Origin: Melioribacter roseus
GTDB lineage: Bacteria > Bacteroidota > Ignavibacteria > Ignavibacteriales > Melioribacteraceae
Assembly: GCA_020722085.1 (NCBI GenBank)
Contig: DYLN01000016.1
Coordinates: 1-43,252 of the forward strand
Direction of reading: 5' to 3'
Length of the DNA stretch: 43,252 nt
Below the pieces are notes generated by a model. That model searched no databases. It was not told the origin of the DNA and saw nothing but the letters and a program-made list of their open reading frames with translations. Below are positions 10,794 through 40,531 of the stretch, piece by piece. Position numbers and translations under genes: made by a program. Positions within the stretch are counted from its first letter, which is position 1. Every line of letters begins with the position of its first letter.

Positions 10794-10794
10794 G

Positions 10795-10995: not shown

Positions 10996-11022
10996 AAAAG
11001 GCCTACTCCCAAGAGGGTGACC

Positions 11023-11188
11023 AGAAAGTAATTTTCAATTTTAAAATCCCCCGCAAGCGGGGCAAGCTGTGGAAACCCCCGCTCTGCCAAAGCGAAGCGA
11101 GGCGAGCCCCGACACAAGTGTCGGGACGAGCGTTCAAATCAGCGTCATTTGTGTTCTATTTTTTAAGAAAATATTACTTTTTGGTCAA
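11023..11188. repeat. Dispersed intergenic repeat, copy B
   Basis: Second copy of the repeat at 1-224, same orientation. It holds one 24-base palindromic unit (11107-11130, CCCGACAC-AA-GTGTCGGG core) where copy A has three. It fills most of the 234-base gap between the symporter gene and the small membrane protein, splitting the galactose end of the cluster. The perfect hairpin could act as a terminator or RNA-processing point here. Confidence 0.85.
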
Positions 11189-11229
11189 CCTCAATTTTTT
11201 TAAAGTGGTTTTGTGATTATTTACTCTAA

Positions 11230-12900: not shown

Positions 12901-13207
12901 ACTAATCCCTATAATTATTGAGAGTAATTAGTAATCTGCACACACATTTATTTACTATCAAATAAACAATTTTCAAAACTAAAATTTCGGCAGCACAAAG
13001 AAAATTATTATTAAAAAAATTTATTTATTTAACAGAAAAGTTTCGATGCATGAATAGACAAAAAATTATTTATGGGCAAACCCCAAAATCATGTCCGCTG
13101 TTTCAATTTGATTCAGTTGACATTTCTTACTTGTGTGAAAAGTATTATAGAATTGTACAACAAAAGCAATTAACAATAAATTTGATTTTTTCACTTTAAT
13201 TTCTCCA
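12901..13207. other. A+T-rich gap between lacI-family gene and symporter gene
   Basis: This is the longest break inside the minus-strand cluster. It contains a possible 42-codon reading frame (13066-13194, described separately) and a candidate -7 box TAGTTTTG on the minus strand (12974-12981), without a well-placed TTG partner. No copy of the 18-bp palindrome found at 40661-40678 is present. No hairpin terminator was seen. Confidence 0.5.
13066..13194 (-). pseudogene. Possible 42-residue signal-peptide-like remnant
   Basis: A GTG-started frame directly after the lacI-family gene, with GGAG (13203-13206, complement) eight bases upstream. It begins (M)KKSNLLLIAFVVQFYNTF, which looks like a Sec signal peptide, then HTSKKCQLNQIETADMILG and stops. 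It could be the surviving 5' end of a deleted exported-protein gene, a tiny real peptide, or chance. Confidence is low. Confidence 0.25.
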
Positions 13208-14269: not shown

Positions 14270-14273
14270 TTTT

Positions 14274-16889: not shown

Positions 16890-16900
16890 TGTTGTATGCT

Positions 16901-19072: not shown

Positions 19073-19116
19073 TTCAGTTTCCCCTGCAGTTTTCGTTTTA
19101 ATTAAACGGCTTTTGT

Positions 19117-21213: not shown

Positions 21214-21243
21214 ATTTTTTTGTTAACAGAGTTATGGTACTTT

Positions 21244-24200
21244 TTATTTAAGATTCATTTTTATTTTTTTCTCGAGGTATTTATCAGAACTTTCCTCAAA
21301 TACTACCCGTATGCTGTAAACATGATTTTCATAACCGGTCAGATTTCCGTTTTCAACCGATTCGATATTTTGTTCCGGCAAATAGACTTTAAGAACTTCT
21401 TCATGTCCGGATTTACCCTGAACCCTGACATTGTATTCATTTCCCTTAAACTCGCTTGACAAAATCCTAAAACCTTCGGAAAATTCACCGACCTTCGGTT
21501 CGGTTATTACAGGAAGGACACAAATACCACCTGAATAATAAATTTCAACCTGAGAATTTTTACCTGCTTCAAAGCTCAGCTTAACACAATCTTGCTGTCT
21601 TCCTTCCTCTTTTTCAAATTTAATTTCCTTTCCGTCAACCAAAACTCTGGTAACTTTTGCACCTTTTGGCAGATAAGGATTAAATTCCAGGTTTAAATTC
21701 CCAATTCCTTCATGCCTAAAGAAGAATGCTGTCTTACCGGGTGTTCTTGTCATTCTGAAACTAAGTGAATGACTTCCTATTTTTACATTATCAACTTTGA
21801 TAAAATCCCAGTTGGCAGGAAGTCTTGGCGAGATAAACAATTTATTTTTGAGTGCATCTGCTTTTAATCCAAGCATTCCTTCAATAGCAGGCTGCAGAAC
21901 CATTGTTTCCGACCAGCACTGATGAGAACAAACGCCTGAGGGTAAATATTGTTCACCATTCAAAACTTCTTCTATATATCCCAATGAAAAATCTTTATAT
22001 ATATTAAGATTATTCATTATATGAGTAAATCCTTGAAGAAAATTTCCGTACTTATATTCTGCCAAAGAAATCCAACCTGTAAACAATGGCCAGATGCTTC
22101 CGTAATGATAGCCCCGCGGATTAAATAATGGGTTATCTTCTCCAATTATGCGAACTCCCCAGTCCGCTGTAAAATTATTTTTAGCATAAGTATCAATAAC
22201 TTTATAAGCTTTTGAGCTATCAATAATTTCAAAATAAATTGGTACAGAAGGTAAAGCAGTTTTTTGAGTGTTGTAGGTATTGTCTTGCAATAATCCGTAA
22301 TTGAAGAAATTTGTTTCCGCATTCCAAAAACTATTATTAATAATCTGTTGAACTATTTGATGCTCTTGTTCATACTTTTTAGCATCTTTTGAGTATCCAA
22401 GAGTTACGGCTATATATTTAGCAGCACCAAGAGCCGCCGACCAGCATCCTGCCAAATAAAAAGTAGTTTTAGCACCATAAAGCTCTCCGCCTTCAACCCA
22501 CCCGTGACCTACATTGGTATTCTCAATCAGATGGTCTCCGTCAGTATCGGTTGAAAAGAGAAAATCCATTGCACTTTTTATATGATGCCAGCTTGATTTA
22601 ATAAAATCGACATCACCTGACCATTTTAAATATTTTCCTGCGAGTATTATATAAAGCGGTGTTGCATCAGCCGCATCGTAATGAACAACTCCGCTTGTCG
22701 TCAGCTCGTGAAAGATTTTGCCGTTTATGTCCTGATATTTCTGATAGGTTTGCAGAACCTGTCTAACTTTTGGGAAATCTCCATAATCTAGAACCGCCAT
22801 TCCGCTCCATTGAGCGTCACGACCAAAATACCATGCATATCCCGGGCGTCCGCTTACTTCTTGGTTTCCATTCCACCCATGTGCAGTAGTGGAATATCCT
22901 GCAACAAATGATTTTCCTATACCAGGAGTATTAACAAAAAATCTGTCGGTTCCTACCAATGCCCATTTGTACCCTGTGTTAAAATTTCCGTCGGGTGTAG
23001 TAATTGTTAATGTATTGCTTAAAAGATCTTTATAATACTTTGCAGTATTTTCATAAATAGTATTTGCCGAAGCAGCGGTTTTTTTATAATAGTCTACTGC
23101 ATTAGACAATCCTTCATTTGTTCCGGCAATTGTCACATTGAGATTATCATTCATTTTCAACTCGAACTGCAGCAGACACGCTACCTGCAATTTATCAGTT
23201 TCGATACCCTTAAATTCTTTGTCCTTTTTTTCAAAACCATCGTATCTTCCATAAAGTTTGTATTGAGGAATTTTGCTTGCCCCAAGAATCGAATAAAATT
23301 CATCGCTTTCATTTTTTACGACGAATGCATTTAGTCCTGCATCCCATGCATACAGCAGTGAGCCAAGAGCTTTATGAGAATAAGGCCACATAAACCTTAA
23401 ATTGCTTTTAAAAGTAATTATTAATTTAGCAGGATAAACTCCTTTGTACTCATAATGAACAACTCCCGCAGGATTGTTAACATCAGAAGTAATAACTTCT
23501 GTAATATATGCTCTTGGAAATTTATAGATTCTTGAAAACGATTCCGGTCTAACCTCAATTTGGGGTATTTGATCATTCAGCCAGTAAATTGAATCACGAT
23601 AAGAAAACTGAACCCCGACTTCATAATCTCTTAAAGCCATAAACGGATGCGTCCAGATTTCTTCAATTCCGCCCTTTTCTCTGCCCATAATTAAAATTCT
23701 CTCGCCGCCGGTATCCCATTCATTCTCAGAAGCAAACCTTGACGAGATAATGAGACCACCGTTGCTTTGTATCCATGCACGTGCAGAATCAATTCTTACC
23801 GAAGAAGAAGTTTGCGTGAATTCTTTAACTATCAAAGGCGCATATTTCCAGTAGCGTGCAGGAACCCGGCTGTTTGATCCTGCCAGATATTTCAGACAAT
23901 TTTTAGTAAATGCCTCAAGCTGAAGTCTATTTTGATTAGGAGGGTTAAAAAAAGTGTAAGTACCGACGCTCAATATTTTCCCTTTACCCAACTTATGCTC
24001 AAGCATTAATTTTGAATCTTCTTTCAGGGTTATATAAGCCCAATCCACAGCGACAGCCTTGCCCTCCGGAACAGAATTTCCAAAATATCCCAATTGTCTT
24101 ACTTTCCCATCGCTTAACGGTGCCCATATATAAGCGCCGCCATTTAATCCTTCAAAAACCGGATGAGAACGGAAAGAATGAAGACCCAATTTTCTGCCGT

Positions 24201-24681
24201 AACCCTCATCAATTGCCTGCACATATTTTACCTCTGGCTCTTGTTTTTCCAAACCCAACGGGACTAATAATTTCACTGCATCAAGAGTTAAAAGTAAGCT
24301 GCCTCCGTGCTCAACATAATTTTTCAGGTTTCTTAGAAAATCCGCATCTGTTTCACTGTTTGTTAATGCTGAGGAATCGGGTCGATGATACCATAATACA
24401 TTAAATGTTTTTAAAATCTGTGAATTATTTTTTAGTTGATTGAACGTAACTTTAATAGGGTGCAGATTTTTTTCATTTAAAAGAAAATTATAGGCAGCTT
24501 GTGTTTCTTCAGAATTAATTAAATCCGAAAGGAACCCAACTTTTAGAACGGCATGTGAAGAGTTTATTCTTTTTTTTGAAATATCATAAGAAGATTGTTC
24601 AGCTAAAATTTGATTTTCGACAAAAAGTAAAGTAAGCAAGTATACAATTATTAAACTATGTAAACGAAATATTGCTTTCAT
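21244..24681 (-). CDS. Exported glycosidase with N-terminal amidotransferase-like domain (1145 aa)
   Basis: A large secreted protein. After a signal peptide (about 1-27), residues about 45-275 form a class I glutamine-amidotransferase-like (ThuA/GATase1-like) fold: VLKVGFLSDLINSEETQAAY, NVLWYHRPDSS, LKNYVEHGGSLLLTLDAV and GKGKILSVGTYTFFNPP. A beta-rich linker precedes the six-hairpin catalytic region (about 590-960) with GRPGYAWYFGRDAQW, DAADATPLYIILAGKYLKWSG, STDTDGDHLIENTNVGHGW, TADWGVRIIGEDNPLF and YHYGSIWPLF. It is paralogous to the 871-residue enzyme. There is no T9SS tail. Similar GATase-like domains occur in beta-galactosidases, usually for oligomerisation. Specificity is unknown. Confidence 0.78.
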   Translation of the reverse strand: MKAIFRLHSLIIVYLLTLLFVENQILAEQSSYDISKKRINSSHAVLKVGFLSDLINSEETQAAYNFLLNEKNLHPIKVTFNQLKNNSQILKTFNVLWYHRPDSSALTNSETDADFLRNLKNYVEHGGSLLLTLDAVKLLVPLGLEKQEPEVKYVQAIDEGYGRKLGLHSFRSHPVFEGLNGGAYIWAPLSDGKVRQLGYFGNSVPEGKAVAVDWAYITLKEDSKLMLEHKLGKGKILSVGTYTFFNPPNQNRLQLEAFTKNCLKYLAGSNSRVPARYWKYAPLIVKEFTQTSSSVRIDSARAWIQSNGGLIISSRFASENEWDTGGERILIMGREKGGIEEIWTHPFMALRDYEVGVQFSYRDSIYWLNDQIPQIEVRPESFSRIYKFPRAYITEVITSDVNNPAGVVHYEYKGVYPAKLIITFKSNLRFMWPYSHKALGSLLYAWDAGLNAFVVKNESDEFYSILGASKIPQYKLYGRYDGFEKKDKEFKGIETDKLQVACLLQFELKMNDNLNVTIAGTNEGLSNAVDYYKKTAASANTIYENTAKYYKDLLSNTLTITTPDGNFNTGYKWALVGTDRFFVNTPGIGKSFVAGYSTTAHGWNGNQEVSGRPGYAWYFGRDAQWSGMAVLDYGDFPKVRQVLQTYQKYQDINGKIFHELTTSGVVHYDAADATPLYIILAGKYLKWSGDVDFIKSSWHHIKSAMDFLFSTDTDGDHLIENTNVGHGWVEGGELYGAKTTFYLAGCWSAALGAAKYIAVTLGYSKDAKKYEQEHQIVQQIINNSFWNAETNFFNYGLLQDNTYNTQKTALPSVPIYFEIIDSSKAYKVIDTYAKNNFTADWGVRIIGEDNPLFNPRGYHYGSIWPLFTGWISLAEYKYGNFLQGFTHIMNNLNIYKDFSLGYIEEVLNGEQYLPSGVCSHQCWSETMVLQPAIEGMLGLKADALKNKLFISPRLPANWDFIKVDNVKIGSHSLSFRMTRTPGKTAFFFRHEGIGNLNLEFNPYLPKGAKVTRVLVDGKEIKFEKEEGRQQDCVKLSFEAGKNSQVEIYYSGGICVLPVITEPKVGEFSEGFRILSSEFKGNEYNVRVQGKSGHEEVLKVYLPEQNIESVENGNLTGYENHVYSIRVVFEESSDKYLEKKIKMNLK

Positions 24682-26847: not shown

Positions 26848-28842
26848 TCACTTCATGTTATTCTCTTTAAAGGAATTAAAAACAAGAGTATTATCTAAAT
26901 CTAAAATTCGGGCATAAAAACCATAACCGCCAAGGTTATTCTCTATTTTTAATTCGAGTTTATTCCAGCCTTTTTTTAAATGAAGCGGAATCTTAAATTG
27001 GTCGGGTTGAGCAATATTTATTTTAAGAAATCTAAAAATCATTTCATCGTTCAAAAAAACTTTACTTCCATCATCGCTGCTAAATAATAAGGGAAGGGTT
27101 TGTTCTTTTGGTGAATAAACAAAAGTTAGGGCATAAGTAACAACAAGTTCATTCGGATCAATTAAGCCGTATAATGAAAAATATCCACTTTTCGGTGTCT
27201 CAACCAATTTCCACCTTATTTGTTGATTGTTTTGTCCATAATAAGTTTTAGTAGTATCAAATTCTTTTTCGGGTAAGAATATTTCATCTAGTCCTAATCT
27301 TTTCCCTGTTGAATCTTGTTTATTCGGGAAAGGTCCTAAAACGTACCATTGAGGAATAAAAGTTCTGTTTGGTTCCAGATTAAACGCATCCAAGCCGATC
27401 AAAAAACCATTTGACCTGGTATTCCGTCCGGTAACAACAAACTCAAGAATAATTTTACTATTTACGGATCTTACTCCCTTCAAAGTAATCTTACCTGCTG
27501 GATATACTTCGGAATTATAGCCGTAAATTTCGCCGATTTTTTCCCCCTCATAAAAAATATCAGCATTGCAATAATTTGGTGCTTTTGTGTAATACACGTC
27601 GACATCATACTCATCGTCTTGGGGAGTTGGAATTGTAATTGAACATTTATTAAAATTTTTTTTCAAATCAATTTGTAGTTGCTTTGAATTACTCCAATCC
27701 GGTCCATAATTATCCATATTCTCAATTGCACTGTTAACATTAATTCCCTCAGCACTTAATGATTCAGCTTCTATTACGCCTTCCGGCACAGTTACTCTTA
27801 AAGGTATTCGTAATGAAGGTTTCAACAAAGGGGGGAATTTCCTGTGAGGTTCCTTTTGATACCAGTAGGCTGTGCTGCTATAATCAGCGATTTCAGAATT
27901 TTCTGCACCGTGTTCGATAGTGAACTTTAACGACTTGGCAAACGGAATTTGGTCTCCGACCATAAATCTATAGGCTGCAATTCTGGCAGCCGAATCATCT
28001 TTAATAATAAGTCCATGATAAGGAGCAAAAAATTCTCCATGGTTAAAATACCAACCACTTGTAAAGAAGTCCTCGGTGCCTGTGCCATTTAAAGATGGTT
28101 TTTCTTCACCATCAACATAAACCATTTCATCTCCTTCAAGATACCACAATTGTCCATTGTAACTTTGCATACTCATATTAACACCAACAAATTGACCTTC
28201 CCCTTCGGCGTCAAGTACTAAATAATTTTCTTTACTTTTTGTTCTCAAATCTCTATGCCACCAGGCATGAAAATAAGCAACGTCATCTGCGAGACGACTC
28301 GAAAGTTTTTGATACTGTATTTGGTAATAAAAAGCATATACCTCCAGGTTTGTTTGATTAACTATTTCGATCTTTGCCGATTTTTGAAACGGCATCGGGA
28401 AATAACAATAATAACCGCCACTTGTCATGCCGGTAAACGATGAAACGTATTGTTGATATTTAAAGCCGGTACCAAAAAAATCACCTATGGGCGCTTCGAC
28501 TGAGGGTTCTTTTTCATCATCCCAATACATTTTTATTAATATTTTTCTTAAGAAATAAGGGTCACGCGAATCTATGGTTACCCAAATTCTGGTAATAATC
28601 CCGGGTCCTTTAATATATGCTATGGTAGCAGTTTCTCCTTTTTTTATAGAAATTCGATCGTTATTACCCCCTGTTGTATCATGGCTGGAAATTTCTATCA
28701 GCTTGCTGTTCTTTAAGAATGGTAAAGCTGCAGGTGATAAAAGATTTTCTATTTGAGATTGTGCCTTAGAAAGCATATTTAATAAAAACATTGGAAAAAT
28801 TATTATTGCTAGTTTATTGATTAAGATTTTTTTAGAGATCAT
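26848..28842 (-). CDS. GH172 (DUF2961) family glycoside hydrolase
   Basis: A 664-residue exported enzyme with signal peptide about 1-27. The DUF2961/GH172 core (about 35-350) has DDEKEPSVEAPIGDFFGTGF, SGGYYCYFPMPF, LEGDEMVYVDGEEKPS and GTGTEDFFTSGWYF. E239 and E257 in the last two motifs correspond to the conserved acidic region that holds the catalytic pair in the family. The C-terminal third contains a beta-sandwich (about 355-490) and a PA14-like or lectin-like domain (about 495-655). Known GH172 members act on alpha-D-fructofuranosides or D-arabinofuranosides, so a furanose-containing glycan is a reasonable but unproved substrate. No T9SS tail; probably periplasmic. Confidence 0.88.
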   Translation of the reverse strand: MISKKILINKLAIIIFPMFLLNMLSKAQSQIENLLSPAALPFLKNSKLIEISSHDTTGGNNDRISIKKGETATIAYIKGPGIITRIWVTIDSRDPYFLRKILIKMYWDDEKEPSVEAPIGDFFGTGFKYQQYVSSFTGMTSGGYYCYFPMPFQKSAKIEIVNQTNLEVYAFYYQIQYQKLSSRLADDVAYFHAWWHRDLRTKSKENYLVLDAEGEGQFVGVNMSMQSYNGQLWYLEGDEMVYVDGEEKPSLNGTGTEDFFTSGWYFNHGEFFAPYHGLIIKDDSAARIAAYRFMVGDQIPFAKSLKFTIEHGAENSEIADYSSTAYWYQKEPHRKFPPLLKPSLRIPLRVTVPEGVIEAESLSAEGINVNSAIENMDNYGPDWSNSKQLQIDLKKNFNKCSITIPTPQDDEYDVDVYYTKAPNYCNADIFYEGEKIGEIYGYNSEVYPAGKITLKGVRSVNSKIILEFVVTGRNTRSNGFLIGLDAFNLEPNRTFIPQWYVLGPFPNKQDSTGKRLGLDEIFLPEKEFDTTKTYYGQNNQQIRWKLVETPKSGYFSLYGLIDPNELVVTYALTFVYSPKEQTLPLLFSSDDGSKVFLNDEMIFRFLKINIAQPDQFKIPLHLKKGWNKLELKIENNLGGYGFYARILDLDNTLVFNSFKENNMK

Positions 28843-28871: not shown

Positions 28872-29795
28872 TTATTCGAAGCTGATTCCAATTCCTATTC
28901 TATGTGCAGCGCCAAGAAGTCCAAAACTGCTATAAGAATAATCGACCCTAGTATTCACCTTTGATATATTAAACTTTACCCCGCCGCCAAAGGAAAAAGT
29001 TGCAACATCGTAATTCAGTTTATAACCGCCCCTGGCAAAAAATTCATCTAAGAAATTCCATTCCAAGCCAAATTGCGATAAAGGTTTACCATCATTAGGT
29101 TTCAAAGCAGAAAAACTAAGAATAACTTTTTGGCTTTCATTTTCAATTGCATTGATTGAGGCACCAAAGGTAAATGCAGTAGGAAGTGGATAGGATTCAT
29201 TCACAAATTTCACATTTGAACCGAAGTGAGAGATTGCCATAGCAAACTTAAAACCACGAAAATCGGAGTTATACATCGTAGCAATATCAACCGAAACTGC
29301 GTCTGCTTTAAAATCCTTATACAAAGCAAGGTTGATATAACTAACTGTTACGCCAATTGTAACACGGTCGGTAAAAAATCTTGCATAGCTAAATCCAAAT
29401 CGATAGTTGCCAGCGTAAAAAGTTTCTCCTGTTCCATCTGGCTGAAGTGGTGTTCTCACCTTCATTTCATCGGTATACAGTGCGGTTACAGATAATCCTA
29501 TTGTTCCAAGTTCATCAAATGAATGTGCAGCAGCTACAAAGTCGTGATTTATACCAGCAAACCAAAAATTATGGTTAAAAACAATGTCGGTTCCTTTTAT
29601 CCAGGGTAATTCTGCTGCATTGTAGTAAGTTGCCTCAGCTCCTTCGACAACAGAAATATAAGCGTCTCCCATAGCTGTACCTCGGGGGCTTATACCTATT
29701 TTTAAAAACTGAGCATCTGTACTACCTGGTCTTTGATATTGGGCAAGAATAAGAACAGGAATAAGAACAAAAATTATTATAAGACACCGAATCAT
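28872..29795 (-). CDS. PorV/PorQ-family outer membrane beta-barrel protein
   Basis: A 307-residue barrel with signal peptide about 1-18. The start of the mature part (STDAQFLKIGISPRGTAMGDAYISVVEGAEATYYNAAELPW) is the hallmark of the PorV/PorQ family, FadL-related barrels; PorV shuttles T9SS cargo to the attachment complex. It ends in an aromatic-acidic IGIGISFE. It lies 16 bases after the gene for one of the duplicated surface proteins, which suggests that it handles those proteins specifically. A general structural or transport role cannot be excluded. Confidence 0.85.
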   Translation of the reverse strand: MIRCLIIIFVLIPVLILAQYQRPGSTDAQFLKIGISPRGTAMGDAYISVVEGAEATYYNAAELPWIKGTDIVFNHNFWFAGINHDFVAAAHSFDELGTIGLSVTALYTDEMKVRTPLQPDGTGETFYAGNYRFGFSYARFFTDRVTIGVTVSYINLALYKDFKADAVSVDIATMYNSDFRGFKFAMAISHFGSNVKFVNESYPLPTAFTFGASINAIENESQKVILSFSALKPNDGKPLSQFGLEWNFLDEFFARGGYKLNYDVATFSFGGGVKFNISKVNTRVDYSYSSFGLLGAAHRIGIGISFE

Positions 29796-29811
29796 ATGAC
29801 AATTCCAATTT

Positions 29812-31590
29812 TTATTTTATTATTACAAACTTTCCAACTTGTACTTTTCCGTTATTTAGATCTTCAACGGTAAATAAGTATATACCGCTCGATACTGCTT
29901 GCCCCACATAGGAGGTTAAGTTCCAATCTTGATAACCTTTTTCCGCATTATTATGATTAAGAGTATTTATATAATCTCCTGCCAAAGAATAAATTTTGAT
30001 GACACAGTCCGCTGGCAAGTTGATAAACTGAATTCTTCTATCTTGCTCCATCCATGTAGCTCTAGTTGCCTGCGGTTTCTCCCACGGCGGATTATACGAG
30101 TAATAAGCGATATCACCCCTGTAAGGGTTCGGCACAACAGCCACTTCCCCTACTGTCTGCGGCGGCTCTGTGCCAGGCACTACCGTTTTAGAATTAGAGA
30201 AAATACTTGACTCTTGTGAAGGGAAATTAATCGACGTATCTTTTTTTGAAAATGCTGTAACAGAATAATAATATTCAAAATTATTTAACAATCCTTTATC
30301 TATATACTCATGTTGCAAACCTGTCTCATTACCAAATCCATCATTAGCGATATCATACTCACCAAGTAATGTCCAAGGACCAGAAGAACTTATCGTACTT
30401 TTATATAGTCTATACCCTTCAAATGGTTGTGTAATATTGTCGCCTCTATTAGGATCATAATAAGTTTCAGGATTAATATCTCCCTTTTGGGATTCCCAAT
30501 TTAGAATAACTTGATGATTCATTGTTTGTACACGAAGTGGAGGTACTGGAGGTGGTGAAGGCACTTTAAAATTCTTTTGAACAAGCCAATCTAATGTTTT
30601 TAAGTTCGCTGATAGACCATTGATCCCTTGTCCTAATATCTCTCCAACTTGAAAATGTAACGTATCGCCAACGTTTAGATCAAAAGGTCCAAAAGAAATA
30701 ATAAATTGAGAACCAATAGGATCCTGTTGATCCTCCATTATTACGCCGGCTGCCATCTGTTTGTAGCGTAAAACATCTTCTGGGGGTGGTGCACCCATTC
30801 CTTGTCCTGGATACCAATTAAACGTCCATCTTATAGAGTCTAAAGGAACATTTTTAGGTGGGAATATTTTTACACCAATAGGGCTTACAGCATTACCATC
30901 AGCACCGCCAGGATTATCAATACCCACTCCCATATGTTCTTCTTTATAATATACAGAATAATCATCCAGTGCAAAGTCCCAACTAGTTCCACGGTAACCA
31001 ACATTAGCATCCAACCAATAAGCAATGTATACTTTTTTTAGATTTACTTTTCTTGGAATCACATAAAAATTATATACGATAATTTGATCTAATGGCGGTG
31101 AAGCCCAGGCATAGCTTGTTTGTATTACTTCTACATGTAAAGGCTTGTGTGAAGGTATATTTGATAAATTATCATCGCTATATCTGCAGACAAAATCCTG
31201 ATCAGAAACACCTGCATAGTTATGCCAGTAGGGTATATTTACTGTATCATTTTTATTCACCACCCATATAGAATCCCATTGCTCGTCAGTAGGATAAAAT
31301 TCAAAATTTGAATTCCAGCTAGTAGTAACCGAAACAGCAGTGTCACCGGTACCTTCATTAATAGCCCCAATCCAAATTCCGCCTTCTCCTATATGTTCCT
31401 CAAAACTTCCTCTTGGAAATTCACTATAAATAAGCCCGGGATAATCTGTTGCGGCACGCCATAGTGTCCCCATGTTTGTAACCAATTGGCGAATTTGTCC
31501 AACATCATGAACTTTATAATCCAAGTGTGTTCTTTGTGAATAGAGCTGTGATGTAGTATATAAAATCAATATAACCGTTTTCTTTATCAT
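29812..31590 (-). CDS. T9SS-type surface protein with fibronectin-III-like domain (592 aa), paralog B
   Basis: Exported protein with signal peptide about 1-18 (ILYTTSQLYSQ). The N-terminal two thirds, beta-rich, contain EEHIGEGGIWIGAIN, WDSIWVVNKNDTVNIPYW and IEVIQ-like strands, with no recognised fold. From about 345 a fibronectin-III-like domain starts after a proline-rich hinge (KVPSPPPVPPLRV), followed by VVPNPYRGDIAYYSYNPPW and a C-terminal sorting domain (KIYSLAGDYINTL ... GIYLFTVEDL ... VGKFVIIK). It is a tandem duplicate of the 642-residue protein upstream. Likely surface-exposed; glycan binding is plausible because of its position beside the TonB receptor and the PorV-like barrel. 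Confidence 0.8.
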   Translation of the reverse strand: MIKKTVILILYTTSQLYSQRTHLDYKVHDVGQIRQLVTNMGTLWRAATDYPGLIYSEFPRGSFEEHIGEGGIWIGAINEGTGDTAVSVTTSWNSNFEFYPTDEQWDSIWVVNKNDTVNIPYWHNYAGVSDQDFVCRYSDDNLSNIPSHKPLHVEVIQTSYAWASPPLDQIIVYNFYVIPRKVNLKKVYIAYWLDANVGYRGTSWDFALDDYSVYYKEEHMGVGIDNPGGADGNAVSPIGVKIFPPKNVPLDSIRWTFNWYPGQGMGAPPPEDVLRYKQMAAGVIMEDQQDPIGSQFIISFGPFDLNVGDTLHFQVGEILGQGINGLSANLKTLDWLVQKNFKVPSPPPVPPLRVQTMNHQVILNWESQKGDINPETYYDPNRGDNITQPFEGYRLYKSTISSSGPWTLLGEYDIANDGFGNETGLQHEYIDKGLLNNFEYYYSVTAFSKKDTSINFPSQESSIFSNSKTVVPGTEPPQTVGEVAVVPNPYRGDIAYYSYNPPWEKPQATRATWMEQDRRIQFINLPADCVIKIYSLAGDYINTLNHNNAEKGYQDWNLTSYVGQAVSSGIYLFTVEDLNNGKVQVGKFVIIK

Positions 31591-31605
31591 AGAAGACTTC
31601 TTTCA

Positions 31606-33450
31606 TTATTTGATAATAACGAATTTCCCAACCTGAATATTTCCTGTTACTCTGTCATGAACGGTAAATAGATACAACCCGCTGGAAACAGCTTGACCCA
31701 CACTCGAAGTTAAATTCCAATCTTCATAACCTTTTTGAATATTGTTATGCTCTAAAGTAGTAATCAAATCACCTGCCAACGTGTAAATTTTTATCTCGCA
31801 GCTTACAGGCAGATTAATAAATTGAATTCTTCTATCCTGCTCCATCCAAAGATGACGGGAACCGGTGGGTTTCTCCCACGGAGGGTTATATGAGTAGTAG
31901 GCTATATCACCTCGATATGGGTTGGGAACAACCGCCACTTTTCCAATATCGTTAGCAGGAGAGGTGCCAGGCACAGCGATTTTAGCATTTGCTGTTAAGC
32001 TAGACTCTTGACCTGGAAAATTTATTGTAATATCTGGTTTAGATAATGAGGTAACTGTATAATAATACTCAACATTGTTCAATAAACCCTGATCAACATA
32101 TTCATATGCCAACCCTGTGTTGGGTCCTACGTTATCATCGGCAATATCATACTCTGCTAATAACGTCCAGGGTCCAGATGAGCTTATTGTGCTTTTATAA
32201 ACTCTATAGCCTTCAAACGGTTTTAGAATTCCATCGGTTCTATTTGGGTCGATAAAATCTTCCGGGTTAACATCATCTGTGCGAGGTTTCCAATTAAGAA
32301 TAACTTTTCTATCTTCTGTTTTTACACGTAAAGGGGGCGAAGGTGGAGGGGAAGGAATTTTAAAATTTCTTTCTACAAGCCATTGAACAAATTTTGCATT
32401 ACTTTCCAAACCATCTTTTCCTTTACCACAAATGAAAGCAATTGTAAAATGAAGTGTATCCCCAATATTCATTTTATAAGGTCCAACAGAAACAAACCCT
32501 TTGGTACCATCCCCGGTGCTAATTTGATCCTCCATGATTGTTCCCGAAGAAATTTGACTATATCTTTGATTATCTAAGCTTGGTAGCCCTTGCTGCCTGC
32601 CATTATACCAAGTAAAAGTTGTCTTTAAACTGTCTTCGATGTTATTACTCGGCGGAAATATTTTATTTCCAATTGGGCTAACAGCTTGTCCGTCTACCCC
32701 ACCTGGCAAGTCAAGACAAACCTGCATCATTTCATTTTTCTGAAAAAATGTAATATCATCTAACGCATAGTCAGAATATATATTGTTGCCTACATTCCCG
32801 TTCATCCAGCTAGTAAGATAAACATGCTGCAAATTGTATTTTTTAGATATAATAAAGTATTCGACCACTACAAAATCACTTAATGGTTCTGAAGCCCATG
32901 CATGACTAATTTGAATTACTTCTATACCTAGCGGATGATGATTCGAAACTTTCAAACTCACTGGACCATAATCAGTATACCTGCATACAAAATCCTCATC
33001 GGCTTTACCTATGTAATTATTCCAGTAGGGTATATCCACAGTATCATTCTTATGCACTACCCATATTGTATCCCAGATCGCATCGGATGGAAAAAATTCC
33101 TTTGGAGAGCCTTCCCCTTCGGCAACAGAAACGTAATTCACAGAATCGAGGGTTGCACCGACCCATAAACCTGCATCCGCTATATGTTCTTCCGAACTAT
33201 TGGGAGGATATTCACAATTAATTAAACCCGGGTAATTAAACAAGCCATCGCCGACCGCATTAAACTCACCAGTATTTGTCTCCACAAGCCTTATCTTTCC
33301 AATGTTATGTATCTTCCAGCTAAGAGTTACATTTTGTGAAAACATATCCTTAGAAAATAAGATAACAATTATGACCACAAGGACAGCATTCCCTGTTAAA
33401 TTTATATTGCAAATAAAGTTTAGTAGTCTTTTAGTTATGCTTTCTCTCAT
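31606..33450 (-). CDS. T9SS-type surface protein with fibronectin-III-like domain (614 aa), paralog A
   Basis: Tandem paralog of the 592-residue protein, alike throughout and nearly identical in short stretches (YKSTISSSGPWTLL, NPYRGDIAYYSYNPPWEKP, MEQDRRIQFINLP). I start it at the ATG at 33450, which overlaps the TonB receptor stop codon in TGATG. The frame stays open 28 codons further upstream, but that lies inside the receptor gene. This gives an N-terminus MRESITKRLLNFIC followed by a long hydrophobic segment ending FSKDMFSQ, a plausible signal peptide. Domain order is unknown beta-rich region, fibronectin-III-like domain, then sorting domain ending VGKFVIIK. Coupled translation suggests one-to-one production with the receptor. 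Confidence 0.8.
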   Translation of the reverse strand: MRESITKRLLNFICNINLTGNAVLVVIIVILFSKDMFSQNVTLSWKIHNIGKIRLVETNTGEFNAVGDGLFNYPGLINCEYPPNSSEEHIADAGLWVGATLDSVNYVSVAEGEGSPKEFFPSDAIWDTIWVVHKNDTVDIPYWNNYIGKADEDFVCRYTDYGPVSLKVSNHHPLGIEVIQISHAWASEPLSDFVVVEYFIISKKYNLQHVYLTSWMNGNVGNNIYSDYALDDITFFQKNEMMQVCLDLPGGVDGQAVSPIGNKIFPPSNNIEDSLKTTFTWYNGRQQGLPSLDNQRYSQISSGTIMEDQISTGDGTKGFVSVGPYKMNIGDTLHFTIAFICGKGKDGLESNAKFVQWLVERNFKIPSPPPSPPLRVKTEDRKVILNWKPRTDDVNPEDFIDPNRTDGILKPFEGYRVYKSTISSSGPWTLLAEYDIADDNVGPNTGLAYEYVDQGLLNNVEYYYTVTSLSKPDITINFPGQESSLTANAKIAVPGTSPANDIGKVAVVPNPYRGDIAYYSYNPPWEKPTGSRHLWMEQDRRIQFINLPVSCEIKIYTLAGDLITTLEHNNIQKGYEDWNLTSSVGQAVSSGLYLFTVHDRVTGNIQVGKFVIIK

Positions 33451-36224
33451 CACCAATCCACTCTTATTCCCAGTCGCACATATCTGCCGGTTGAAAATTG
33501 TCTTGGGTCCATAAGTCTGTACATCGTATACCAATCGTAATAGACCTTCGTACCCGGTTGAATATCTCCATACTTATAAGGCTTACCAGTCCAGTTATTA
33601 AATCCGTAAGCAATCTGAACATTTTTCTGGTCAAACAAGTTAAACACCTCTAGTTCGAAGCCTAAAGTTATTCCGCCGATTAGCTCAAAGCTTTTTATGA
33701 ACCTAATATCAGTTTGGGTAGTTATTGGACCTGTTGCAGAGTTTGCCAACTTTTGCGCATCGGCTTGGCTAAAAGTGCCAGGTGTATAAGGCTGTCCGGA
33801 AGAAAAATTAGAAAGTACTGTCAACGACCAATCATCCGGTAATTGTATTCCAAATAATTTCATAGGTCGTTCTTTAGGAGAGCTGATCGTTCCTTGAAAA
33901 ACTATTTGATGTCTAACATCCCAGTCAAGTCTGTTTTCGCGTATTGGATTAGGGAAATCAGTTAATGAACGGATATAGTCTGCAAATGCAGAAGAAGAAT
34001 AACCATTTGCCCATTGTACTGTATAGGTGAGTTTTCCGGAAATAAAATTCGAGTAAAGTTTATTTAAGGTAAATTCTAGTCCTCGTGCTCTAGAATATCC
34101 AATATTGTCATACAAATCGACTGGAATCCCCATAGCAGCTCTAAGATGAGTTGTGCCAACTTGTTTTGATATATCCTTTGCATAGCTTTTAATATCCAAT
34201 CCCCAATTTTCACCAATCTGATATGTTAACCCAAATTCGTATTGAATCGTTTGTTCAAAGTTCAATTTTGGATTACCTGTGAACGAGCCGCTATAAGGGT
34301 CGCGGTAGTAAAATTGTAATTCGGGCAGTTGGGTAAAATGTCCATATGAAAAATAAGTAACCATTTTTTCTGATATCGGAAATGAAATTCCAAATCTCGG
34401 ACTAAACTGATATTTGAACAGATTCCAATCAGCTTTGAAGCCGGTAGCATCTTCCCATTGTTGTTTCCAGCCGGGGTCATTAACAGTCTTTCCAAGATAA
34501 AACCAATCCCAGCGAATTCCGGCATTTATTATTAAGAATTCTTTTTCAAACTTATCTTGAACATAAATACTTCCTATCCACGGATAGGTATGAAACACCC
34601 ACCGATATTGCCCAAACTCAGGGTACGGTCCTGGAGGAGGTGATACTTTAGGTCCATTATTATACAGATATTCACCATAATTCGACAGCTTTGTTCCACC
34701 ATCTTCAATATCAACATAACTTAAATCGTTGTACTTTACCGTAGCACCAATTTTAACAAGATGTTCAGAAAAAACTTGAGATGTTAAATCAGTGATAAAA
34801 GAAAAGGTAGAAGTGTTATCGTCTCTCCAAATAGCTTGAAAACTATCACCGGCATAAAAACCAGTTAAGGGATCGAAGTAAGGAGCCTTGATTTTAGAGG
34901 AATCTGTCCAGCCATTTGGAGTTTGTTTTATATCCCAATAATCTTCCGGCGTGCGATTATTCAAGTCTTCATGATATTTAACACCCAAATAACCCAATCT
35001 TACATTCATAAAAGTAGATTGAGAAAAAATATGCTTATATTGAATATTTAATTCGTTATTAAATCTGAGATAACCGGGGGTGTTATCAGGGTAATATTTC
35101 CAGAGCCAGTCAAATTGACTCCAATAATTCCACGAACCATTATAACTGATTACTAGTTGAGAATTTTTTGAAATATCCCAATTAATCTTAGTAGTTAATG
35201 TAGCAGTGTTAGTCTGTTTTTCAGTAACATTAATACCAAATAAATTTATCTTATGACGAGTACGATTGTTATTATACGGCGTATTAGTCAAATTGACTGT
35301 GGCATTCAAAAAATAGTAAAGTTGTCCAGGTACATTAATTCCTAATGCTGGCAGTATATTTCGTGTTATTGGTTCAGGACCACCTAAATAGACTGTAGCA
35401 TACTGTGTTTGGTAATCTTCACCTAAAAATCTAAAACTATCGTTTTTATATTCTACACCGCCGATAAACTTGTCGCTGCCGGTTCTTGTAGTAATATTAA
35501 CCACGCCGGACTGGGCTTCACCATATTCAGCATTAAAAGCACCTGTTAATAATTGAACTTGCTGAACTGAATTAACATCAAGATCAAGCACGCTTCTACC
35601 GCCATAAAGGGGATGTGTAACAGGCATCCCGTCAACGAGGAATAAAATCTCACCACCTCTTCCTCCTCTAATATGAATATCTTTAACACTTTGGTCCCTT
35701 ACCTGTAATTGTGTATCACCTAAAGGTACTAGTTGAGGCGCTGTACCGATGACGGTACCTCCCTGTAATTTAAAAATATCAGAGGTGGTTTGTAAACCGG
35801 GTACATTTCTAATATCTTCACGTGTAACGGTTCTTTCTGTATTGGTAACGTCTTTCTGAATTATCTTCGGCTGAGCTGTTACCACAACTGTGGGGGTCTG
35901 AATAGACGCAGGTTCTAGTTGAATATTAATCTCCGAAGTAAGATCCGCTCTAACTAAAACATTTTCTACAGAAATTGTGTGATACCCGACCATAGAAACT
36001 CTTAAAGTATATGTAGCGGGCGGAATGCCAATAATATAATATTTTCCTTCCTCATCGCTGGCAGCGCCCAGAGAGGTACCTACCAAAACAACATTAGCAC
36101 CTATAAGAGCTCCCCCAGTCTCTTTATCTATAATTTTACCTGCTATTTTCCCTGAACCAGATGCAAATATTTGAATGCTCAGCAAAAAAAGTATTAATAA
36201 AGTTTTAATTCCACTCCTTGTCAA
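33450..36224 (-). CDS. TonB-dependent receptor of the carbohydrate locus (924 aa)
   Basis: Outer membrane transporter. Signal peptide about 1-22 (ending IFASGS); carboxypeptidase-D-like domain about 24-105 (GKIAGKIIDKETGGALIGAN ... YTLRVSMVGYHTISV); plug about 120-240 (IHIRGGRGGEILFLVDGMPV, QVQLLTGAFNAEYGEAQSG); then a large barrel ending VRLGIRVDW. The translation start is TTG, supported by AAAGGAGA eight bases upstream; no ATG is close. It stands where SusC would in a polysaccharide locus, but no SusD-family lipoprotein is present; two unrelated lipoproteins precede it instead. It should import glycan fragments, energised by TonB. Confidence 0.92.
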   Translation of the reverse strand: MTRSGIKTLLILFLLSIQIFASGSGKIAGKIIDKETGGALIGANVVLVGTSLGAASDEEGKYYIIGIPPATYTLRVSMVGYHTISVENVLVRADLTSEINIQLEPASIQTPTVVVTAQPKIIQKDVTNTERTVTREDIRNVPGLQTTSDIFKLQGGTVIGTAPQLVPLGDTQLQVRDQSVKDIHIRGGRGGEILFLVDGMPVTHPLYGGRSVLDLDVNSVQQVQLLTGAFNAEYGEAQSGVVNITTRTGSDKFIGGVEYKNDSFRFLGEDYQTQYATVYLGGPEPITRNILPALGINVPGQLYYFLNATVNLTNTPYNNNRTRHKINLFGINVTEKQTNTATLTTKINWDISKNSQLVISYNGSWNYWSQFDWLWKYYPDNTPGYLRFNNELNIQYKHIFSQSTFMNVRLGYLGVKYHEDLNNRTPEDYWDIKQTPNGWTDSSKIKAPYFDPLTGFYAGDSFQAIWRDDNTSTFSFITDLTSQVFSEHLVKIGATVKYNDLSYVDIEDGGTKLSNYGEYLYNNGPKVSPPPGPYPEFGQYRWVFHTYPWIGSIYVQDKFEKEFLIINAGIRWDWFYLGKTVNDPGWKQQWEDATGFKADWNLFKYQFSPRFGISFPISEKMVTYFSYGHFTQLPELQFYYRDPYSGSFTGNPKLNFEQTIQYEFGLTYQIGENWGLDIKSYAKDISKQVGTTHLRAAMGIPVDLYDNIGYSRARGLEFTLNKLYSNFISGKLTYTVQWANGYSSSAFADYIRSLTDFPNPIRENRLDWDVRHQIVFQGTISSPKERPMKLFGIQLPDDWSLTVLSNFSSGQPYTPGTFSQADAQKLANSATGPITTQTDIRFIKSFELIGGITLGFELEVFNLFDQKNVQIAYGFNNWTGKPYKYGDIQPGTKVYYDWYTMYRLMDPRQFSTGRYVRLGIRVDW

Positions 36225-36239: not shown

Positions 36240-37703
36240 TTACTGCAAGTTTAAGCTGTGAAGTATATCTGTTACCATCTGTTTAGCATCATCTTTTTGA
36301 ATAAAATAAATCGGGAACCCTAGAATAACGGCGTCAAAAACAGTACCATAATACCTTAGGCCAACTGCGCGTCCTCTATATTGAAAATATGGACTATCGT
36401 TTGCATTATCGTAAGAGTAGATAATGTCTGTGAACCCTGCTCTTTGTGTAACAAGATTAATTTGCCCTAACTTGCCATAGTAAGGAAACGCTTCTGCAAG
36501 TTTTGCTGAATCGACACGAATATTCGGATAACCTTTAGCGGCAATTGCTCCGGTAAAATCTGCATCCAAGACAGTTTCATCAACAGAAATAATGTGCAAA
36601 TAATCATGAACAAAAGAGCCTTTTGGAAAAGAAACAGGGAAGTTTTGATTCCATGCAAAAGATTTCAATATTCGCCAGCCGCTCATAATAAACTTGCCAC
36701 CAACATTCAAATAATCCGATAATTCTTGTTGATTTGCTAAGACTGATAATGCATGCGGCTGTGCACTAGGGCGGTCGTCTGCCACCCAGACTACTAATTT
36801 ATATTGCCCTAAGGTATCTTTAGGAGGCATGCCCTTTGATAAATAATTCCACCAATCATTGCCGGGAAACAGATCTGAATAGAAATTTCTAACATCTTGA
36901 CTACTGCTTTGCACACCAGGGGGAAAGTTATTTACATTGGTTTCGTTAATTATTAAAATCTTTTTGTTAAAAGTTGCTTGAAGCAACCTAATTGTAACTG
37001 AATCTCCGACTGGGTCGACAAGATTGGTATTATTCTTAGATGTCACTCTAAGAACATGATTTCCTACCAAAGGTGGCTTAAATAAATTGGGTGTAATATA
37101 AACAGAAGTATCTTGTGACCAATTCCAAACACCGTCGTCAACCGACCATGCATACGATACTACCTTTCCACCCTCTTCAGCATCTTCGGCAGTAAATGTT
37201 AGCTGGATTCCCTGCCACCAATCTGTTGTTTGATTTACAGCAAAAAAAATTTGCTTATTGGTTGGAGAAATAATTTTTGTCGTGGGCGGGCTGGCTTTTC
37301 GGGTAAAGAAAATTTTTGTCGCAGGCGTGGGATCTGGCGTACCATTATTATCCACTGCTCTTACTTCAAAAAACTGCTTGTTCAATATATCATCAGAAAC
37401 AAACGCAATGGTCTGACTCGTCTCTTTTGTATCTCTCCATGGTTGAATAACAGAATCACCCATAACAATATGATAGGTAGTATATCTATATTGGTAATTG
37501 GTTACATATCCATCATTGTCGTTTCCATCCCAATGTAAAGTAGCAAGGGCAAACAAAGTATCCCCTTCTTTTGGAATATTTGCAATAATAGTATTTGGCG
37601 GCTCATTTGGATTTGGCGGGGATGTTGGTCTTTCACATGAATTGCATATAAGAAATAATACTGTTAACGATATAAAAGAAAAAATAATAGACAAAATTTT
37701 CAT
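36240..37703 (-). CDS. Lipoprotein with amidotransferase-like C-terminal domain (487 aa)
   Basis: Lipoprotein signal with Cys23 (LICNSCERP; C20 is a less likely site). Residues about 35-240 contain two Ig/fibronectin-like modules (GDTLFALATLHWDGNDNDGY, FTAEDAEEGGKVVSYAWSVDDG). The C-terminal half (about 245-487) resembles a class I glutamine-amidotransferase-like fold: KKILIINETN, QYKLVVWVADD, ELSDYLNVGGKFIMSGWR and a final strand-helix DAVILGFPIYFIQKDDAKQMV. No catalytic Cys-His-Glu triad is evident, so it is probably a binding or scaffolding protein. It sits between another lipoprotein (28 bases away) and the TonB receptor (15 bases), the position normally held by SusD. Confidence 0.72.
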   Translation of the reverse strand: MKILSIIFSFISLTVLFLICNSCERPTSPPNPNEPPNTIIANIPKEGDTLFALATLHWDGNDNDGYVTNYQYRYTTYHIVMGDSVIQPWRDTKETSQTIAFVSDDILNKQFFEVRAVDNNGTPDPTPATKIFFTRKASPPTTKIISPTNKQIFFAVNQTTDWWQGIQLTFTAEDAEEGGKVVSYAWSVDDGVWNWSQDTSVYITPNLFKPPLVGNHVLRVTSKNNTNLVDPVGDSVTIRLLQATFNKKILIINETNVNNFPPGVQSSSQDVRNFYSDLFPGNDWWNYLSKGMPPKDTLGQYKLVVWVADDRPSAQPHALSVLANQQELSDYLNVGGKFIMSGWRILKSFAWNQNFPVSFPKGSFVHDYLHIISVDETVLDADFTGAIAAKGYPNIRVDSAKLAEAFPYYGKLGQINLVTQRAGFTDIIYSYDNANDSPYFQYRGRAVGLRYYGTVFDAVILGFPIYFIQKDDAKQMVTDILHSLNLQ

Positions 37704-37731: not shown

Positions 37732-38340
37732 TTAAAAGTATTTTACGTCAACAATTTCGAGTTTACGATCAAAATAATATGTATCTCTATAACGCTGCAC
37801 CGATTTAAAAGGGCTTAATTGAACTTTAATTTCTGTTGTCGCATTCTCAGAAATTTTAAAGCCAACAGGTAAAGTAACTAACTTCGGAACATCTGGAGGT
37901 AACTCAACTGGTATATCAAATATATTTATGTGTAATAAATCGGCAGTCATGCCAAATACAATTGAAGTATAGTTCCCCGGTGGTACGTATGATTCAAAAA
38001 TAGTATGCGGTTTATAGGTATTGTTCTCTCTTTCAATTACATTAATTATTTTGTCTTCTTGCCTATAACTTTCTATAGTAGGATACAAAATGGCAAATAT
38101 TGAATCCGAATAAGCCTTCCCTTGAAAAACAGTGGTTTTAAAATAGTCACCGTTAGAAACAGTAATTGTATCTTTAATAATTATTATTGAAGTATCAGTT
38201 GGATCAGATTGTAAAATTATTTTTAATACACCGGGTTTTGGTGAACTTTGAACGCCTGTATCACAACTTGTGATAAAGACAATTGTTATCAGGATTAAGG
38301 CAAATCCGTAAAGAATATTCTTATAATATTTATTTGTCAT
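37732..38340 (-). CDS. Lipoprotein of unknown function (202 aa)
   Basis: Begins MTNKYYKN, then a hydrophobic stretch GFALILITIVFITSC with Cys26 as the lipidation site. The mature part is beta-rich (GVLKIILQSDPTDTSIIIIK, YVPPGNYTSIVFGMTADLL), resembling a small transthyretin/prealbumin-like or Ig fold, but no family was recognised. It is followed after 28 bases by the second lipoprotein. It could be an accessory subunit of the receptor complex at the outer membrane. Confidence 0.72.
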   Translation of the reverse strand: MTNKYYKNILYGFALILITIVFITSCDTGVQSSPKPGVLKIILQSDPTDTSIIIIKDTITVSNGDYFKTTVFQGKAYSDSIFAILYPTIESYRQEDKIINVIERENNTYKPHTIFESYVPPGNYTSIVFGMTADLLHINIFDIPVELPPDVPKLVTLPVGFKISENATTEIKVQLSPFKSVQRYRDTYYFDRKLEIVDVKYF

Positions 38341-38428: not shown

Positions 38429-40531
38429 TTAACGCAACAGAACCATTTTCTTCGTCTGAACAAAATCCTCTGCGACCAATCTATACATATATACACCACT
38501 AGCTACGCGCTCGCCTTTGTTATTTGTTCCATCCCACGATACTGTGTATTTTCCCGCTTGCGTAAAATCATTAATCAGCGTTTTCACATTTCTGCCTAAT
38601 ATATCATAAACAGTTAATGATATTTTCTGCGCTTTTGGAATTACAAATTTAATTATTGTTGTTGGGTTAAAAGGATTAGGATAATTTTGAGATAATTCAT
38701 AGTACGCCGGTACTAATGTGTTATCTCGATTAACACCTGTAACTGAATTTTTGGCTTGCCCATTATTATAGATTCGTACATCGTCAATTAATCCTCTAAA
38801 ACCTCGCCTACCATTTAAGTTGCTGCCGTTGCCAATCCTTAATGGAGCATTTGCTATCGCTGGTGGGTTAACAGCAACTGAGGAATCATATCCAACACTT
38901 AACATTGTATTTGTGGAATCAAACAGCATAAAGACAGCGGCGGTATCCGTTCTTTTGTAAACGACACGGTACCAACTATGCAATTTTATTGAATCAGGCA
39001 ATGTAATTTCACTGTAATCCTTTGTTCTATTAGGCGCATTGGGATCAACATAATAACGAGCTCTAATTCTAGCATTAGGTTGAAATCTTATTTCATAATT
39101 ATTCTGATACCAGTTTCCTCTCACAATTGGTCTATTTAATAGGCGTGTATATTCCAAAGTGGAATCTGCATTAAACCAAAATGAAACGTAAAAATCCTTC
39201 ATGGTAAGAAAAGGTGAAGGTACTTCTAGAAAAGCAGAATCGGCATCAGATGGCATTAATAATGAATATTTACCTTCAGCAGCATTAGTAGAATAAACTG
39301 GTGCCCTATTCCCAAAAGTAGTAACTTTATTTACAAGAGGAGAAACATCAACCGGTGTGCCAGAACCATTTTCAAAATTGAGGTGGAGTACCAATATATT
39401 AGGTTTATAAACAACAAAAGAGTAATACGGAAAATCTTGTCCGCCTATGCCTGCTATAGGCTGTTGAGCGGTCAACCCCTGATCATCGGTAGCGGTTATG
39501 TAATAACGAACCTCCGTACCAAAATTTTGTTTGGGAATTAACCCTACATAATGATCTTGAGAAACCATCATAACCATTGGTGTTGATTGCCAAGTATTTC
39601 CTTCATCTACTGAATAGTGAATTTCAGCGCTCTGAATAGAGCCAGTTGATGAAAAAGCCATTATGTCTGCTTCAACAGAATAATTATCTACGCTATCCGG
39701 CTGATTAGGAACTTGCGTCAGATTAGTTATTATTGGCGGAACAGCAAAGTTTCTTACAATATTGCTAATCCGAATTTCATCGACAAATCCATCCAACCAT
39801 CCATCCGTGCTACCTTGTCCGGCAAAGCCGATTGTTACCGGCTGCTTTGTTTGAATTGGTGGAACATCTAAGACAGGGTCATAACTTGCCGTATTGAACG
39901 AAATTAGCTGCCTTTTATCATCATGAACCATTTGAATTAGAATGTGACGGGTAGTATCGCGAATAAATGTTAAATGAAACCATTTACCTGGCATAAGTGT
40001 ATTGTTAGGAGAGTTAACCTGTGGCCATCTATCTTGCCCTTCTACATTATAACCGGTAGAGAAAAATCTATTACTCCCCCAGTTCTCAACAAAATAATTG
40101 GGGCGCCAGAAAACTTCATCGCCAGCCTTAATGACCAACCGCGGGACCCATCTCCAGTCAGATGAGCTTGTCCCATAAGTAAAAACATTCATCCAACCTT
40201 CTATTGTCCAGTTACCTTTTAGATTCAAAGCAGCAGTGTCAGCTACACTCACATAGGAGGAATCACTAATAGCATCATTATTTATACGCAAGCATTGACC
40301 AAGACCTAAGGCGGCATTGGATAGATATGTAAGTTTACCATACCCAACTCCATCTGCTGAAAATTGTGACTCATTTTGGAGATTGCCGTCAAAGTGCATT
40401 AACAGTACAGTGTTGCTATCTGGCGTGTAAGGACCTCCAATTTGTTCTTGGGCAAAAGAGGAATTACTGATACCCAGTAAAAAAAATATAACAAGAGAAA
40501 AAGGGAATGTTCTGTGTAGTATTTCTGTCAT
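38429..40531 (-). CDS. T9SS-secreted LamG-domain protein (700 aa)
   Basis: First gene of the cluster. Signal peptide about 1-28 (LGISNSSFAQE). Two concanavalin-like LamG domains are visible: about 38-265 (TVLLMHFDGNLQNESQFSADG ... GWLDGFVDEIRISNIVRNF) and about 380-600 (ILVLHLNFENGSGTPVD ... FRGLIDDVRIYNNGQAK), separated by a fibronectin-like segment. The last 90 residues are a T9SS sorting domain (LSQNYPNPFNPTTIIKFVIP, DILGRNVKTL, GVYMYRLVAEDFVQTKKMVLLR). It is probably a surface glycan-binding protein. An ideal AGGAGG (complement of 40538-40543) precedes the ATG, suggesting high expression. Confidence 0.85.
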   Translation of the reverse strand: MTEILHRTFPFSLVIFFLLGISNSSFAQEQIGGPYTPDSNTVLLMHFDGNLQNESQFSADGVGYGKLTYLSNAALGLGQCLRINNDAISDSSYVSVADTAALNLKGNWTIEGWMNVFTYGTSSSDWRWVPRLVIKAGDEVFWRPNYFVENWGSNRFFSTGYNVEGQDRWPQVNSPNNTLMPGKWFHLTFIRDTTRHILIQMVHDDKRQLISFNTASYDPVLDVPPIQTKQPVTIGFAGQGSTDGWLDGFVDEIRISNIVRNFAVPPIITNLTQVPNQPDSVDNYSVEADIMAFSSTGSIQSAEIHYSVDEGNTWQSTPMVMMVSQDHYVGLIPKQNFGTEVRYYITATDDQGLTAQQPIAGIGGQDFPYYSFVVYKPNILVLHLNFENGSGTPVDVSPLVNKVTTFGNRAPVYSTNAAEGKYSLLMPSDADSAFLEVPSPFLTMKDFYVSFWFNADSTLEYTRLLNRPIVRGNWYQNNYEIRFQPNARIRARYYVDPNAPNRTKDYSEITLPDSIKLHSWYRVVYKRTDTAAVFMLFDSTNTMLSVGYDSSVAVNPPAIANAPLRIGNGSNLNGRRGFRGLIDDVRIYNNGQAKNSVTGVNRDNTLVPAYYELSQNYPNPFNPTTIIKFVIPKAQKISLTVYDILGRNVKTLINDFTQAGKYTVSWDGTNNKGERVASGVYMYRLVAEDFVQTKKMVLLR

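Follow-up and report, generated by a model that had tools for sequence, protein, structure and literature searches.

A candidate dedicated PorV-family carrier encoded with a TonB receptor and type IX surface proteins in Melioribacter roseus

The window analysed here is a stretch of 43,252 nucleotides from Melioribacter roseus (assembly GCA_020722085.1, contig DYLN01000016.1, positions 1 to 43,252), and it contains an operon in which a barrel of the PorV/PorQ family is encoded together with a TonB receptor (TBDR) and two surface proteins. The locus raises the question of what a PorV-like protein does beside a receptor. The first-pass annotation had proposed either a cargo-specific shuttle of the type IX secretion system (T9SS), or a stable complex of receptor, barrel and surface proteins that replaces SusD. 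The features of the operon are listed below in the order of its genes, with sub-features after them.

38429-40531, minus: LamG-domain protein with an ordinary cargo-class T9SS C-terminal sorting domain (CTD); heads orthologous operons
37732-38340, minus: predicted lipoprotein, 202 aa, weak DUF4382 similarity; kept in orthologous operons
36240-37703, minus: predicted lipoprotein, 487 aa; kept beside the receptor in orthologous operons
33450-36224, minus: TBDR with CarboxypepD-reg domain and plug, 924 aa (PF13715, PF07715, PF00593, PF25183)
31606-33450, minus: surface protein A, 614 aa counted from its ATG (33450); paralogous to B
29812-31590, minus: surface protein B, 592 aa, with signal peptide, beta-supersandwich N-domain, FN3-like part and triad-class CTD
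28872-29795, minus: PorV/PorQ-family 14-strand outer-membrane barrel, 307 aa (NF033709 and AF2 model)
26848-28842, minus: DUF2961 protein (GH172-type; PF11175, 285 bits), next gene downstream of the barrel
31606-31893, minus: CTD of A, triad class
30556-31533, minus: N-domain of B, residues ~20-345, a beta-supersandwich of the glycoside hydrolase/phosphorylase N-domain type
29812-30099, minus: CTD of B, triad class, with the C-terminal end GKFVIIK
29412-29474, minus: barrel residues 108-128, longest presumed extracellular loop, DEMKVRTPLQPDGTGETF

The gene order on the minus strand is TBDR, A, B and barrel, and the barrel gene starts 16 bp past the stop of B. The earlier description of a PorV/PorQ-family barrel directly behind two duplicated proteins is borne out by the coordinates, by the 57% identity between A and B, and by a score of 168.2 bits for barrel residues 26-306 with the PorV family model NF033709 (cut-off 90), which makes the barrel a member of that family. 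The duplication is old, each copy falling in its own well-supported clade common to other genera and phyla, and the number of CTD-protein copies per locus ranges from 1 to 4. Translational coupling of A to the receptor had also been claimed; the start codon of A does overlap the receptor's TGA (TGATG), but the overlap is local, as first-start ORF calls put 40 bp between the two genes in L084, an ortholog of the same genus. The receptor scores 80.6 bits with the SusC/RagA model TIGR04056, under its cut-off of 368.

Downstream of the module, at window positions 8573-24681, lies a carbohydrate locus with several (alpha/alpha)6-type hydrolases among its genes. It also encodes a LacI regulator, a sodium:solute symporter (SSF), galactokinase (GalK) and galactose-1-phosphate uridylyltransferase (GalT), a gene set that suggests a galactose-containing substrate. 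The glycan-active enzymes of the neighbourhood include GH63-like ones and the DUF2961/GH172-type protein. Receptor, glycan-active enzymes, regulator and sugar metabolism thus occur together, as in a polysaccharide utilization locus in the broad sense. The DUF2961 gene is also present at some orthologous loci, for example L129, L132, L133 and L148. A second, unrelated TBDR with a strong plug match is encoded on the plus strand at 6011-8179, outside any triad of the kind described below.

Within its family the barrel falls below each of the equivalog models: canonical PorV (NF033710; 59.1 bits, cut-off 250), PorQ (NF033711; 70.7 bits, cut-off 220) and PorV2 (NF052325; 55.8 bits, cut-off 325). 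The AF2 model (pLDDT 87.1, pTM 0.80) has the 14 strands of a FadL-type barrel, and in rankings that served to exclude no fold its top PDB matches are T9SS PorV structures (8gl6_F, Z 34.1; 6h3i_F, Z 33.7), with an rmsd of 4.0 over 285 residues for the superposition of 8gl6_F. PorV is the best PDB match by sequence profile too (1.9e-30). Weak ubiquitin matches in the same profile search look like repeat artefacts. FadL follows just behind PorV in the structural ranking, and the likeness of fold would allow the barrel to act as a channel of the FadL type that passes small compounds, hydrophobic or otherwise, with the cargo of the shared operon exported by the housekeeping PorV. We consider this quite improbable, given that PorV is the top match by both sequence and structure, that pairing with one class of CTD (see below) is not expected of a channel, and that the neighbourhood is of a carbohydrate type.

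Residues 108-128, delimited by the strand limits of the AF2 model, are among the most conserved parts of the barrel in orthologs. Strand counting in the model would place this loop on the extracellular side, where it may touch the CTD of the partner protein. An alignment of nine divergent barrels (A1) was too variable along its whole length to serve in a collection scan, and a closer set (A2) took its place.

The genome of the window comprises 3.64 Mb and is 99.9% complete, and the genome-wide counts given here derive from searches. The PorV family model returns 20 matches, and nine of these genes sit in triads of TBDR, CTD protein and PorV-like barrel, with constant order, on one strand and closely spaced. 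Plug-domain matches number 26 in all, so that nine triads among them are far beyond chance; chance proximity of the three genes is ruled out by this repetition within one genome. The canonical machinery is present as well. PorU (970 bits) is encoded directly before PorV (259.4 bits, above the equivalog cut-off of 250), and SprA scores 1012 bits. As PorU-PorV and SprA lie elsewhere in the genome, the barrel of the window is an additional and, as proposed here, a dedicated one.

Two further observations concern the same genome. At L048:7885-11374 (contig C251) the gene of a 527-aa cargo-class CTD protein stands before a pair of PorV-family genes, of 335 and 298 aa. Such pairs occur about once per genome in relatives, and the arrangement is possibly a PorQ-like attachment unit. 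Contigs C139 and C158 gave identical matches in several searches and probably represent a duplicated stretch in the assembly.

The two surface proteins had been described as carrying C-terminal sorting domains, and this holds in the broad sense of a C-terminal beta-sandwich akin to known T9SS CTDs, supported by a match to the end of PorZ, a PorU profile match and Foldseek, which returns PorU first for the model of B. By the standard models they do not count as type A domains, for neither CTD matches TIGR04183 or PF18962 at E<=0.01. A search with type B CTD models at the same threshold was likewise negative, and in both proteins the CTD has a sole model match, to the CTD end of PorZ (E 1.9e-5 and 1.1e-4).

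A KF-type terminal strand, of which GKFVIIK is an example, is shared by nearly all triad proteins; the genome's ordinary cargo mostly has a KKM-type tail instead. In leave-one-out scoring, the ten triad CTDs reached 72-121 bits with the model of their own class and 10-25 bits with the cargo model. Conversely, 26 of 26 cargo CTDs scored higher with the cargo model (23-140 bits) than with the triad model (4-38 bits), for a set that was gathered with TIGR04183 and is biased toward the cargo model. Searched genome-wide, the triad CTD profile finds exactly ten matches of at least 103 bits, namely the ten that built it, and all ten are encoded directly upstream of a PorV-like gene; this profile search found no triad-class CTD away from a barrel in the genome of the window. 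The next match comes only after a gap, with 43 bits (1e-10); it is the PorU CTD, the nearest other relative of the triad CTDs in this genome. Judged by these profiles, the triad CTDs and those of ordinary T9SS cargo in this genome fall into two distinct classes.

The pairing extends to six near-complete relatives that were left out of profile building. There, 47 triad-class CTDs score at least 64 bits, and 39 of them lie directly before a PorV-family match (78-191 bp). Two of the remaining eight lie about 1.1 kb before such a match, and six belong to tandem CTD arrays of one genome. Arrays of this kind are found on contig C1 of G037 (about 1742724-1755262 and 2537305-2548224), each with four triad-class CTDs and one PorV-family gene at its end or start.

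Homologs of the window barrel occur in all 38 same-order genomes searched, its own included, with 4-35 matches each. At 40 of 40 loci sampled from these genomes a receptor lies upstream on the same strand; the loci were picked by similarity to the window barrel, and the figure covers that branch of the PorV family. Linkage in relatives had been set beforehand as the test of the proposal, and it is found in the nine triads of the genome itself, at these 40 loci and in the CTD pairing of the six relatives. Close orthologs keep the whole operon, from the LamG-CTD protein through the 202-aa and 487-aa lipoproteins and the receptor to 1-4 CTD proteins and the barrel.

The arrangement receptor-CTD-barrel is seen at 24 of the 40 loci. 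The other 16 have a second arrangement (architecture II), usually CTD, CTD, lipoprotein, receptor and barrel; nearly all of these have a triad-class CTD in first place and an ordinary cargo-class CTD in second. Architecture II loci (L089-L103 and L121) occur about once per genome, with a triad-class CTD protein of ~700 aa, a cargo-class CTD protein of ~715 aa and a lipoprotein of ~515 aa. The presence of both CTD classes in one operon weakens the idea that the triad class is a mere effect of operon lineage.

In architecture II the lipoprotein gene overlaps the receptor gene, and in the window the 487-aa lipoprotein gene lies directly upstream of the receptor and is kept there in orthologous operons. 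Such linkage would fit a SusD-like partner of the receptor, with the CTD proteins and barrel forming an independent surface structure. Most other triads of the genome, however, have no such lipoprotein before the receptor, while the CTD protein and the barrel are constant, and we regard this explanation as very improbable. A different neighbour is found at L038:9845-11506, where the gene immediately upstream of a triad receptor encodes a SurA/PrsA-like peptidyl-prolyl isomerase. In several relatives (L104-L106, L110 and L113) the same position is taken by genes of similar length, and the isomerase is perhaps a dedicated periplasmic chaperone.

The module extends beyond the order. In a scan of named genomes, Ignavibacteria, Calditrichota, KSB1, Neomarinimicrobiota, WOR-3 and a small number of other groups together contributed 39 loci; almost all of the genomes are metagenome-assembled. 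A receptor lies upstream at 31 of these loci, and all but one of the other eight are short on the upstream side. In other classes of the phylum, receptor, CTD protein and barrel are clearly together at 12 of 19 sampled loci; those not counted as clear triads (L237, L241, L243, L247, L248, L249 and L252) are affected by contig ends or spurious ORFs. The order does change, the barrel preceding the CTD protein at L153 and L255. Operons often group functionally loose genes, and the module could in principle be a mere neighbourhood, its outer-membrane genes sharing regulation within a glycan locus but not being functionally paired. That is hardly credible where order, spacing and class pairing persist over nine paralogous loci and several phyla. 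The distance matrices of receptor, surface protein and barrel are congruent for every pair (r 0.78-0.95), which is not taken as evidence of binding because a jointly inherited operon yields the same result without contact.

The partner protein has a Sec signal peptide without a lipobox in addition to its T9SS CTD. In the AF2 model of B (pLDDT 90.5) the N-domain resembles the N-domains of GH15/65/94/116-type enzymes (VIA Z 16-20). Since a shared fold shows no function, we infer from this likeness, with the locus context as support, that the domain may bind carbohydrate. The fold would also be compatible with a surface partner that closes the receptor like a lid.

No match to SusD_RagB (PF07980), the single Pfam model on which all SusD counts here rest, was found in the genome of the window. 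Of 118 genomes sampled from the phylum, 57 have triad-class CTDs and 60 have SusD_RagB. Within the class of the window (29 genomes) triad-class CTDs are present in 24, in up to 17 copies, and SusD in five, with one match each. None of the sampled genomes with at least nine SusD matches has a triad-class CTD, and many genomes of other classes have a few of both. The proposed replacement of SusD fits this distribution but is not proven by it, as some genomes of other classes hold both and a lipoprotein gene adjoins the receptor in the window; profile counts of this kind are consistent with a functional replacement.

Several known systems share parts of the module. T9SS PorV (NF033710; 6H3I, 8GL6) has the same FadL-family fold and is the best structural and sequence-profile match, and the gene of the window barrel directly follows a CTD-protein gene as that of canonical PorV follows PorU in this genome; barrels of the window type differ in their link to a receptor and to one particular class of CTD, and in having many paralogs per genome. 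In PorU-PorV and PorZ-PorQ, which the triad CTDs recall through their next-best match to PorU and their match to the end of the PorZ model, a CTD protein is held uncleaved on a PorV-family barrel (PMC10202324). Those pairs are sortase and attachment machinery, whereas the triads comprise beta-supersandwich/FN3 proteins and a TonB receptor, and their retention would be a shared property by analogy. Type B CTD systems likewise encode a carrier with its cargo, and the carrier serves as a surface anchor (PMC10994853, PMC10202324), but it is of the PorP/SprF type rather than the PorV family, and the link is to gliding rather than to a TonB receptor. SusCD/RagAB has a CarboxypepD-reg TonB receptor and a surface partner in one glycan locus, as here; the triad has no SusD-family protein and its receptor stays under the SusC/RagA cut-off. 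Finally, in BamG-BamH of the Bacteroidota BAM a FadL-family barrel adjoins another barrel and grips a surface protein by extracellular loops (PMC12578637, PMC12611786), but BamH is a lipoprotein and the complex serves outer-membrane protein assembly, not uptake. In the open-access papers searched, no earlier description of a receptor-CTD-PorV module was found. The parts are known, namely PorV-family carriers, uncleaved CTD-carrier pairs and TonB receptors with surface partners; their fixed, repeated combination across phyla as an importer module did not turn up in those papers.

According to published work, a T9SS substrate emerges from the SprA pore with its CTD leading and bound to a carrier barrel, which grips the CTD by its extracellular loops; type B substrates remain anchored by their own carriers (PMC10994853). 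Against this background we favour, as reasonably probable, a reading in which the barrel is a dedicated carrier that stays as an anchor and presents a glycan-binding protein to the receptor in the role of SusD. The partner would be exported by Sec. At the SprA translocon the co-encoded PorV-like barrel, instead of the housekeeping PorV, would then recognise the partner's special CTD and carry the partner across the outer membrane. We propose that the triad-class CTD is not passed to PorU for removal, and that for this reason the barrel would remain the partner's membrane anchor, in the way that PorU is kept on PorV, PorZ on PorQ and gliding adhesins on their type B carriers. Held next to the receptor, the beta-supersandwich/FN3 protein could catch a glycan and hand it to the receptor, the task of SusD lipoproteins in Bacteroidia. 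A counterpoint to this reading is that one barrel is found with two cargo proteins here and with up to four elsewhere; there would not strictly be one carrier per cargo.

The barrel might instead be a transient cargo-specific shuttle only, its partner being passed to PorU, relieved of its CTD and attached to LPS, with no lasting receptor complex. PorV itself is such a shuttle for type A cargo (PMC10994853), the pairing with a cargo class suits a shuttle as well as an anchor, and several cargoes per barrel would be possible. Shuttling alone nevertheless leaves the constant receptor gene unexplained, and the PorU CTD, to which those of the triads come nearest, is described as uncleaved and PorV-bound (PMC10202324). 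A purely transient role therefore seems unlikely. The interpretation in the first-pass annotation is partly supported, and its two options, shuttle and stable complex, make better sense as consecutive stages of a single protein, because carriers are known to stay on uncleaved CTDs in PorU-PorV, PorZ-PorQ and type B adhesins (PMC10202324, PMC10994853).

A wider proposal follows the reading of the barrel as a retained carrier, and we hold it to be evenly balanced between right and wrong: that across the FCB group there is a third class of T9SS CTD-carrier pairs, in which PorV-family carriers leave the translocon with their co-encoded surface protein and stay on as a permanent part of a TonB-receptor complex, an importer equivalent to SusCD but built with type IX secretion in place of a SusD lipoprotein. 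If true, this would explain surface-assisted TonB importers in bacteria with few or no SusD proteins and would tie nutrient uptake to type IX secretion. It would also assign a role to the large numbers of genes beside receptors that now carry no label beyond 'PorV/PorQ family protein', offer a sequence-only means to tell surface subunits anchored by a carrier from ordinary T9SS cargo, and predict many carrier-cargo pairs fit for structural work.
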